Part shown: positions 39,192 to 53,151 of the stretch, piece by piece
Layout: every line of letters begins with the position of its first letter
Position numbering within the stretch: the first letter of the stretch is position 1
Assembly: GCF_004104055.1 (NCBI RefSeq)
Contig: NZ_QOVJ01000002.1
Coordinates: 248,001 to 312,000 of the forward strand
DNA: 64,000 nucleotides
Source: Leeuwenhoekiella aestuarii
GTDB lineage: Bacteria > Bacteroidota > Bacteroidia > Flavobacteriales > Flavobacteriaceae
Direction of reading: 5' to 3'
The notes under the pieces: generated by a model
Database searches by the model: none
What the model was told of the DNA's origin: nothing
The model's input: the letters and a program-made list of their open reading frames with translations, nothing else
Position numbers and translations under genes: made by a program

Positions 39192-41474
<2,283 letters not shown>

Positions 41475-41519: not shown

Positions 41520-41527
41520 CAAATATA
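41520..41527 (-). promoter_or_regulatory. Probable -7 element of the icd promoter
   Basis: TATATTTG on the minus strand matches TAnnTTTG exactly and lies 102 bp before the icd ATG. It is downstream of the 41642-41679 terminator, so icd should be transcribed independently of the RNA before it. Confidence 0.4.
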
Positions 41528-41641
41528 GAATTTTATGGCAGATTTTAACAGCTAAATTCTTCTTAAAGCCCTAAGAATGCGGCAAACCGAAAGCGATTGG
41601 AAGAATTAGGTCTTTAATAAGGTTTATTTGCTGAAATAAAA

Positions 41642-41679
41642 AAGCTCTGTTAAGATATTTAAATATCTTAACAGAGCTT
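41642..41679 (-). terminator. Strong intrinsic terminator without an assigned gene
   Basis: A 38-bp perfect palindrome with outer arms AAGCTCTGTTAAGATATTT and its complement, followed on the minus strand by a T-run. There is no such run on the plus strand, so it stops minus-strand transcripts. No protein gene ends nearby: rplS has its own terminator 310 bp upstream. Confidence 0.88.
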
Positions 41680-41800
41680 CTGATGTTTTGATTTTTTACC
41701 GGTGAACCCTTGAAGTTCCTAAGACAAGAATATTAGTACTTGTACCGTAGATCAATACATGGGGATTAGTTTAAGCTAATCCCGGTCCAATACCTTTATT
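41642..41800 (-). ncRNA. Candidate structured small RNA with intrinsic terminator
   Basis: On the minus strand an ACCGG/CCGGT helix (41782-41786 with 41698-41702) can close a domain. The domain contains an 8-bp hairpin GGGATTAG/CTAATCCC (41762-41783, competing with the closing helix) and ACAAG/CTTGT (41724-41743). GAAC/GTTC (41703-41717) is a third small stem. After about 18 bases the transcript reaches a 38-bp perfect palindrome followed by TTTTTT. Both neighbours, rplS and icd, have separate signals. I do not recognise it as tRNA, tmRNA, SRP or RNase P RNA. The 5' end is unknown and no clear promoter was found, so this is a candidate only. Confidence 0.35.
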
Positions 41801-41955
41801 TAAAATTACTGCTAAACAGTGATAACGATATTGGCAAAAAGAATGCATTTATAAAGTAGCACTCTTGAAACGTTTAGTGATACTAAGTTAATTAAAAAAT
41901 TTAAAACGTTGTAGTTAAATTAAATATTTTATTAACTCCTTGTGAACCAGCGCTG

Positions 41956-41987: not shown

Positions 41988-42015
41988 AAAAAAGCCCCTC
42001 AATGAGGAGCTTTTA
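41988..42015 (-). terminator. Terminator of rplS
   Basis: AAAAGCCCCTC and GAGGAGCTTTT pair with one mismatch around AAT. On the minus strand a run of T follows. It lies 21 bp after the rplS stop. Confidence 0.88.
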
Positions 42016-42036: not shown

Positions 42037-42387
42037 TTATTTTCTAATTTCTTTGATTCTTGCTTTCTTACCAGTAAGACCTCTGAAATAGTAAATACGA
42101 GATCTACGAACTTTACCTCTTTTGTTAATTTCAACTTTTTGAAGAGCTGGCATATTGATTGGGAAAATACGCTCAACACCTACTGTACCAGACATTTTTC
42201 TGATTGTAAATGTTTTAGTAACTCCTGTACCACGTACTTGGATAACAACTCCTCTAAAGAACTGTGTACGTACTTTTTCACCTTCACGAATTTCATAATA
42301 CACAGTGATAGTATCACCTGCGCTAAATTCTGGGAATTCTTTTTTCTCTACAAATTCGTTTTGTACAAAACTGATTAAATCTTCCAT
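42037..42387 (-). CDS. rplS: 50S ribosomal protein L19
   Basis: Protein of 116 residues with the L19 hallmarks FSAGDTITVYYEIREGEK, RTQFFRGVVIQVRGTG, FTIRKMSGTVGVERIFPINM and RRSRIYYFRGLTGKKARIKE. It follows trmD in the same direction with a 135-bp spacer that holds its own strong promoter and a roughly 65-base leader, so it can be expressed separately from trmD. Confidence 0.97.
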   Translation of the reverse strand: MEDLISFVQNEFVEKKEFPEFSAGDTITVYYEIREGEKVRTQFFRGVVIQVRGTGVTKTFTIRKMSGTVGVERIFPINMPALQKVEINKRGKVRRSRIYYFRGLTGKKARIKEIRK

Positions 42388-42452
42388 TTTTAAGATTTTT
42401 TAAAATTGTATAAAAGCAACATACACGTACTTCGCCAGAGGTTGGTTCTATG
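42388..42452 (-). promoter_or_regulatory. rplS mRNA leader, candidate L19 autoregulatory element
   Basis: About 65 bases lie between the expected transcription start and the rplS ATG, unusually long against the other short leaders here. It is less A+T-rich than its surroundings and can form a TGTAT/ATACA stem near the start codon. A ribosomal leader named L19-Flavobacteria has been described for this position in this class; I infer that this is a member but could not match its covariance model. Confidence 0.4.
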
Positions 42453-51720: not shown

Positions 51721-53151
51721 TTACATAGTGAGTTTTTTGTTTAAATCTTCTACGTATTTTTTAAACTGTTTGTCTGTAGCTGATAGGTTGTCTACGGTTT
51801 TGCAGGCGTGTAGAACGGTAGCATGATCACGTTTACCTATCTGTGAACCAATACTTGCAAGAGAAGCTTTGGTTAGTTTTTTTGCAAAAAACATAGCGAG
51901 TTGTCTTGCTTGTACAATGTGTCGTTTGCGGGTTTTAGACTGTAGTGTATCTACATCCATCTGAAAATAGTCACTTACTACTTTCTGAATGTAATCTATA
52001 GAAACCTCGCGCTTGGTGTGCTTAACATAATTGTCAACAATCTTCTTAGCAAGCTCGAGATTGATTTCTTTTTTATTGAAGGAGGAGTGAGCGATTAATG
52101 AGATAATAGCACCCTCTAATTCACGAATGTTAGTCTTAATATTATTTGCTAAAAACTCAACAATATCTTCTGGCATTTCTACACCATCTTGATAAAGTTT
52201 ATTTTTAATAATTGAGACACGTGTTTCAAAACCGGGCTGTTGCAGTTCTGCAGAAAGACCCCATTTAAAGCGAGAAAGCAGACGTTGTTCTATATCCTGC
52301 ATATCAACAGGAGCTTTATCACTAGTTAAAACTACCTGTTTTCCGTTTTGATGTAAATGGTTAAATATGTGGAAAAATACATCTTGAGTACCAGCCTTAC
52401 CTGATAACAATTGAATGTCATCTACTATAAGTACATCAATTACCTGATAGAAATGAATAAAATCATTTCGGTTATTCTTTTTAACCGATTCTATATATTG
52501 CTGAGTGAATTTTTCTGCAGAAATATAAAGAACTGTTTTATCTGGGTAACAGTCTTTAATTTGTACACCAATAGCATGAGCTAAATGTGTCTTACCTAAA
52601 CCAACACCTCCAAAAATAAGTAATGGGTTAAAAGAAGTTCCTCCCGGTTTATTTGCAACAGCCATACCTGCAGAACGAGCAAGACGGTTAGAGTCACCTT
52701 CAAGAAAGTTATCGAAATTGTAATTAGGATTCAATTGAGATTCTATCTGAAGATTACGAATTCCCGGAATTACAAATGGATTTTTTAGTTCAGGATTTTT
52801 ATTTTTTAAAGGAGCGTCAACTTCTTGCGATTTCATCGTGTTGGGACGGTTGGTGCTCGGTATTTTTTCAGTGAATGGTTGGCGGTTTCCGTAGGTATTT
52901 TCCATACGAATTACGTAAACCAATTTTGCGTGTTCTCCCAGCTCTTTAGTTAGAGAGACTTTTAATAGTTTTACATAATGTTCTTCTAGCCACTCATAAA
53001 AGAATTTACTAGGAACCTGTATGCTGAGAGCATTATCTGTAAGTTTAACTGCTCGAATGGGTTCGAACCAGGTTTTGTAAGCCTGCGGGGTTATATTGTC
53101 CTGAATAAATGAGAGACAATTATCCCATACTGTTTGCGCAGTCATACTCAT
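51721..53151 (-). CDS. dnaA: Chromosomal replication initiator protein DnaA
   Basis: Protein of 476 residues. Domain I is at the N-terminus (VWDNCLSFIQDNITPQAYKTWFEPI). The AAA+ core has Walker A LLIFGGVGLGKTHLAHAIG, Walker B VLIVDDIQLLSGKAGTQ and sensor motif LLSRFKWGLSAE. Domain IV carries the DNA-binding signature KRDHATVLHACKTV. It starts at ATG 53151 (a second ATG lies two codons later). It is not accompanied by dnaN or gyrB, and no cluster of DnaA boxes was noticed around it, so the replication origin is probably elsewhere. Confidence 0.97.
   Translation of the reverse strand: MSMTAQTVWDNCLSFIQDNITPQAYKTWFEPIRAVKLTDNALSIQVPSKFFYEWLEEHYVKLLKVSLTKELGEHAKLVYVIRMENTYGNRQPFTEKIPSTNRPNTMKSQEVDAPLKNKNPELKNPFVIPGIRNLQIESQLNPNYNFDNFLEGDSNRLARSAGMAVANKPGGTSFNPLLIFGGVGLGKTHLAHAIGVQIKDCYPDKTVLYISAEKFTQQYIESVKKNNRNDFIHFYQVIDVLIVDDIQLLSGKAGTQDVFFHIFNHLHQNGKQVVLTSDKAPVDMQDIEQRLLSRFKWGLSAELQQPGFETRVSIIKNKLYQDGVEMPEDIVEFLANNIKTNIRELEGAIISLIAHSSFNKKEINLELAKKIVDNYVKHTKREVSIDYIQKVVSDYFQMDVDTLQSKTRKRHIVQARQLAMFFAKKLTKASLASIGSQIGKRDHATVLHACKTVDNLSATDKQFKKYVEDLNKKLTM

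Follow-up and report, generated by a model that had tools for sequence, protein, structure and literature searches.

A candidate structured noncoding RNA gene between rplS and icd in Leeuwenhoekiella and other Flavobacteriaceae

The interval between rplS and icd

On the minus strand of the window (the whole 64,000-nucleotide stretch of Leeuwenhoekiella aestuarii DNA that was analysed) rplS is followed by icd, whose product looks like a monomeric NADP-dependent isocitrate dehydrogenase, and a noncoding RNA is predicted to lie between them (Table 1). A sequence-only reading of this DNA had placed a structured RNA at 41642-41800, ending at a terminator formed by a perfect 38-bp palindrome and a T-run. 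The palindrome (41642-41679, 38 nt) is exact, with 22-nt overlapping arms that are 100% complementary, and a terminator scan of the minus strand found a 19-pair stem with a T-run at this position. The scan gave three terminator-like sites in the region against 0.9 expected. Across most of the family the terminator reads AAGCC(A/T)..GGCTTTT. While the terminator end of the proposed interval stands, the candidate −7 box moves the predicted start of the RNA upstream by about 75 nt.

No ORF of at least 30 amino acids able to use the palindromic terminator was found on either strand between the start of icd and the end of rplS, the sole ORF of that length that was set aside being one that overlaps rplS in another frame. 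As rplS has its own terminator hairpin, the earlier claim that no protein gene ends just before the palindrome holds, as does the claim that the −7 element of icd lies beyond it. A protein-coding gene at the RNA locus was rejected, since no ORF is conserved in position or sequence among the relatives.

The candidate −7 element of the RNA was compared with the flavobacterial consensus TAnnTTTG (PMC9723704). In congeners this position is occupied by TATATTTG, TACCTTTA or TAAATTAG, in many cases with ATATCAAA after it, and other genera have TTG-N19-TACATTAG, which is near the consensus; no TTG was found at −33 of the window's candidate promoter. This conserved promoter-like element sits between the rplS terminator and the RNA. 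The AT-rich repeats upstream of it in the window correspond to the repeats TGTTAATAAC..GTTnATAA..TGTTAATA that other genera have. Three spaced TGTTnATAA-like repeats precede the promoter in the window and in most relatives; they are conserved across the family, including genomes with a diverged RNA core, and it is possible that they form a site for a regulator.

The dnaA gene lies at 51721-53151, and the RNA is 10-14 kb from dnaA in the window and in several complete relatives. The cumulative GC skew of the window has its minimum at about 47 kb, at a divergent degQ-like/dapF-like pair. A replication origin was considered and rejected, as no DnaA-box cluster was found and the GC skew of a complete congener was not decisive.

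Table 1. Features of the rplS-icd region, in window coordinates
Feature	Position	Strand	Basis or remark
icd	39192-41417	minus	start at 41417
icd −7 box TATATTTG	41520-41527	minus	beyond the palindrome
Predicted noncoding RNA, ~243 nt	41634-41876	minus	ends predicted from the candidate −7 box (5′) and the terminator (3′)
Intrinsic terminator, palindrome and U-rich tail	41634-41679	minus	scan and family comparison
Three-way-junction core	41676-41763	minus	R1 and R2 models matched over full length
P1b and P1 3′ strand, with near-invariant GGUAA bulge	41683-41703	minus	
P3 hairpin GGAACTTCAAGGGTTC	41704-41719	minus	other genera often have a GNRA-type loop
P2 hairpin ACAAG-TACTAATATT-CTTGT	41724-41743	minus	part of the core
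5′ hairpin GGGATTA..TAATCCC before the junction	41762-41783	minus	minimum free energy (MFE) fold; congeners keep the stem with other sequence
Upstream closed stem, 3′ arm GGTATTGG	41787-41794	minus	pairs with 41827-41834
Upstream closed stem, 5′ arm CCAATATC	41827-41834	minus	pairs with 41787-41794
Candidate −7 element TAACTTAG	41883-41890	minus	compared with consensus TAnnTTTG
AT-rich repeats AACAATTGTTAACA / GGTTCACAAGG / AGTTAATAAAA	41927-41967		upstream of the candidate promoter
rplS terminator hairpin	41994-42010	minus	
rplS	42037-42387	minus	gene end at 42037
L19-Flavobacteria ribosomal leader (RF03130), 29-nt motif	42417-42444	minus	40 bits; upstream of rplS

Fold and covariation

The region encoding the RNA is present in all 13 Leeuwenhoekiella genomes, and its core is about 89% identical across the aligned congeners, with most of the changes in the stems. 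When RNAalifold was run on the genus alignment with no structure supplied, it returned a three-way junction of 25 pairs, eight of which show compensatory changes. The stems are P1 (AUGU.UUGAUU with AAUCAA.ACAU), P1b (CGGU/ACCG), P2 (GCAAG/CUUGC) and P3 (GAACUU/GGGUUC). Paired cells, pairs and cells changed on both sides, and the covariation score all exceeded the values from every one of 500 shuffles of the 3′ letters. Sliding the alignment by one to three columns lost the signal, the real counts being above every slide on most measures. For P2, four of the five pairs have changes on both sides within the genus and all five across the family, while its UAAU(A) loop is invariant or nearly so throughout the family.

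Folding the minus strand of 41640-41805 gave −50.7 kcal/mol (z = −6.5 relative to dinucleotide shuffles). As the terminator supplies much of this energy, it is the covariation that provides strong evidence for the fold. In the MFE structure P1 and the terminator lie side by side without overlap, and no competing antiterminator was noticed. Upstream of the junction, the closed stem formed by CCAATATC and GGTATTGG is kept in all nine congeners examined, with seven or eight of its eight pairs, and shows compensatory changes such as CCTATATA/TGTATAGG. The two or three hairpins of the closed domain suggested by the sequence-only reading correspond to a three-way junction preceded by a hairpin and a further closed stem.

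A full-length alignment (A7) was made of 19 diverse genomes with similar spacing. Read towards the 3′ end, conservation begins with the AT-rich repeats and TTG-N19-TACATTAG, after which come AATATCAAA, the small hairpin H1, then H2, a region of variable hairpins, H4 and finally the junction with the terminator behind it. RNAalifold found 55 pairs in this alignment, 29 with compensatory changes. H2 in other genera is AUAAAG-UAACGUU-CUUUAU, a near-invariant (A/G)CGUUCUUUAUA hairpin near the 5′ end of the RNA that resembles a boxA antiterminator; it is not clearly recognisable in the window. In these genomes the leaders of 16S rRNA carry GTTCATTGACATATTG-type or GTTCATTG-type sequences that are only loosely like this element. 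In columns 355-400 of the alignment there is very little variation in the 11 lower terminator pairs (CAAGAAGCCAU/AUGGCUUUUCUUG), less than would be expected if termination were their only task, and the hairpin may have a second role.

Distribution in the Flavobacteriaceae

A covariance model of the core, trained on Leeuwenhoekiella alone and without the terminator (R1), matched Gillisia, Aequorivita, Patiriisocius and other Flavobacteriaceae, where the core lies about 320-420 nt downstream of rplS; matches in further genera reached E 9e-14. A second model of the core, also without the terminator (R2), gave confident matches (E<=8e-4) in 46 of the 397 Flavobacteriaceae genomes that were sampled. 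Directly 3′ of every confident core there is a terminator hairpin, most often (A/G)(A/G)GCCAT..ATGGCTTTT, except in the upstream copies of two tandem pairs, for which the terminator of the downstream copy serves both. All 25 core pairs have changes on both sides in a 74-sequence family alignment, which is biased towards the structure of the model to which it was fitted and takes in the weak rows L151-L153, judged false, and a few loci fetched twice; with the same bias, paired cells amount to 90.6% (67.4% when shuffled, 27.5-46.7% when slid) and covariation to 0.699 (0.267 when shuffled, at most 0.176 when slid). As in the genus, the pair counts lie above those of all 500 shuffles and, on most measures, above every slide. 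The compensatory changes by which the earlier reading proposed to judge the RNA across the family were found.

The terminator could also be followed beyond the recognisable core. It is present at 70 of 97 rplS loci, as against one of 485 shuffled sequences, and 41 of these 70 loci also have a CGTTCTTT element upstream of it. In Maribacter, Arenibacter, Zobellia, Aquimarina, Tamlana and Winogradskyella, whose cores are divergent, the same hairpin stands 370-660 nt downstream of rplS. Loci of the Maribacter type (L026, L034, L037, L061, L065, L074 and others) appear to have a longer RNA of about 300-450 nt with a different core, in which a GCAATCAATGGTTGC hairpin recurs upstream of the same terminator. 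A third model that includes the terminator (R3) matched 191 of 299 genomes and 154 of 236 genera at E<=0.01, counts that represent an upper estimate because it is mostly the palindromic hairpin that carries the weaker matches, which turn up on either strand.

In the loci of Robiginitalea, Muriicola, Zeaxanthinibacter, Poritiphilus and Eudoraea the gene after rplS is a convergent one, and the RNA was not found beside rplS there. R2 listed no match in the sampled genomes of the large genus g147, which is probably Flavobacterium, and at one of its loci (L178) icd directly follows rplS. Among the sampled genomes of the order outside the Flavobacteriaceae there was no credible match: those obtained (L155-L158) lack the terminator and were judged to be due to chance. 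The same judgement was made of four weak matches (L109, L151, L152 and L153) that also lack it, the last three lying inside ORFs.

Gene order, interpretation and relation to known RNAs

The gene order (INDEPENDENCE) is rplS, RNA, icd in most loci, with rplS upstream on the same strand and at a steady distance nearly throughout. The next gene after the RNA is something other than icd in L105, an ABC-transporter ATPase gene in L136, L137, L142 and L148, and a convergent gene 52 nt away in L139. Inserted genes separate the RNA from icd in L108, L124 and L127 and from rplS in L024 and L029, while L107 has no rplS within 1.5 kb upstream. L139 and L147, both of genus g62, carry two tandem copies of the whole RNA body between a single promoter and a single terminator.

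That the RNA persists when either neighbour is replaced, and once faces a convergent gene, argues that it belongs neither to icd as a leader nor to rplS as a tail, and these comparisons show the predicted RNA to be independent of both neighbouring genes. In a cis-acting leader or attenuator the junction would sense a signal and the terminator would decide on readthrough into icd. The position of icd as the next gene in most loci and the riboswitch-like layout of a junction followed by a terminator would suit this, but icd has its own −7 box past the terminator, in the MFE fold P1 neither overlaps the terminator nor faces an evident antiterminator, and the downstream gene is not constant, all of which makes such a leader very improbable. 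About equally improbable is a processed 3′ UTR of rplS, or a backup terminator for readthrough from it. Although the steady placement of rplS upstream might suggest this, rplS terminates on its own, a promoter-like element is conserved before the RNA, the RNA is kept despite insertions after rplS or with no rplS close by, and a backup terminator has no need of a covarying junction. The earlier preference for a separate structured RNA over an icd leader, and its doubts over readthrough from rplS, are therefore both upheld. We consider that the locus is a standalone noncoding RNA gene with its own promoter and terminator, whose product is structured and untranslated, with a probability of roughly 0.8.

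For such a standalone gene, RNA polymerase would start at the RNA's own promoter about 150 nt downstream of rplS (about 41876 in the window) and stop at the palindromic terminator (about 41634). The transcript would fold into a 5′ domain, the three-way junction (P1, P2 and P3) and the terminator hairpin, and would presumably act in trans. The boxA-like 5′ hairpin might let the polymerase resist Rho on an untranslated RNA. The retention of the fold by paired mutations across much of the Flavobacteriaceae makes it very probable that the RNA has a real job. Near-invariant unpaired bases set among covarying predicted stems are the pattern of a binding or tertiary-contact site, and we would put at about even the chances that the junction serves as a binding module, in which the P2 loop (UAAUA) and the GGUAA bulge are offered to a protein, a ligand or some other partner. 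This is preferred because the loop and bulge are kept while the stems vary, and because two genomes have two copies of the body in what is apparently one transcript. In the g62 tandem both copies keep the junction, whereas the second has only a degraded CGTTCTTT-type element; this would fit a modular junction together with a 5′ element that each transcript requires only once. A base-pairing regulatory sRNA, in which the structure would serve only for stability and the exposed loop, the bulge or the 5′ CGUUCUUU element would pair with mRNAs, seems a less likely role. Pairing of this kind by an exposed segment has been proposed for Rfp18 of F. psychrophilum (PMC9723704), and the RNA is similarly standalone and terminator-ended, has a length near that of the F. 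psychrophilum sRNAs and has conserved single-stranded segments; however, the whole junction rather than one short seed is conserved, and a conserved loop and bulge with covarying stems suit a binding fold equally well.

Beyond the binding module, we suggest only tentatively that this may be a family-wide, possibly housekeeping RNA of a functional class that other bacteria are not known to have. It would combine a conserved regulator site of its own, an antitermination element like boxA and a three-way junction that binds protein, and would occur in most of the genera sampled, a few such as Flavobacterium having lost or replaced it. The Flavobacteriaceae are major marine polysaccharide degraders. 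They have also been called understudied (PMC9723704). With its covarying structure and its constant chromosomal location in dozens of genera, the RNA gene is a strong candidate as a central regulator or a ribonucleoprotein; it merits an Rfam entry, and the conserved promoter, repeats, junction and terminator offer handles for a partner search.

As far as can be judged by comparison with catalogued families, the RNA is a new, previously uncatalogued family. Rfam searches at gathering and permissive thresholds gave only chance matches in the window region and no match for the RNA in six relatives, in agreement with the sequence-only reading, which had recognised no known class. Rfam 15 does not contain this RNA, and no account of it was found in the open-access literature searched. 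ARAGORN found no tmRNA in the window or in seven related loci, and RNase P RNA (RF00010) is not at the RNA locus, having a 197-bit match on another contig. The covariance models that had been singled out for checking, of 6S and Flavo-1, also gave no match there: this applies to Flavo-1 (RF01705), likewise a computationally found structured RNA of Flavobacteria, with cmscan at E<=10, and to 6S RNA and 6S-Flavo (RF00013, RF01685). The L19-Flavobacteria leader (RF03130) is also associated with rplS, but lies upstream of the gene, whereas the new RNA is downstream and unrelated. Rfp1-89 of Flavobacterium psychrophilum are likewise standalone structured noncoding RNAs from the same family of bacteria; they are independent transcripts, Rfp18 being conserved across its genus, and the sRNAs of this species have a median length of 176 bp (PMC9723704). 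Compared by description and through the g147 genomes, the new RNA is unlikely to be one of them, since R2 lists no match in g147 and icd directly follows rplS in L178. The 6S-Flavo RNA, which is found elsewhere in the same genome (G000:C2:417001-417109, 96 bits), is like the new RNA a standalone RNA gene in Bacteroidetes, though with a different fold.
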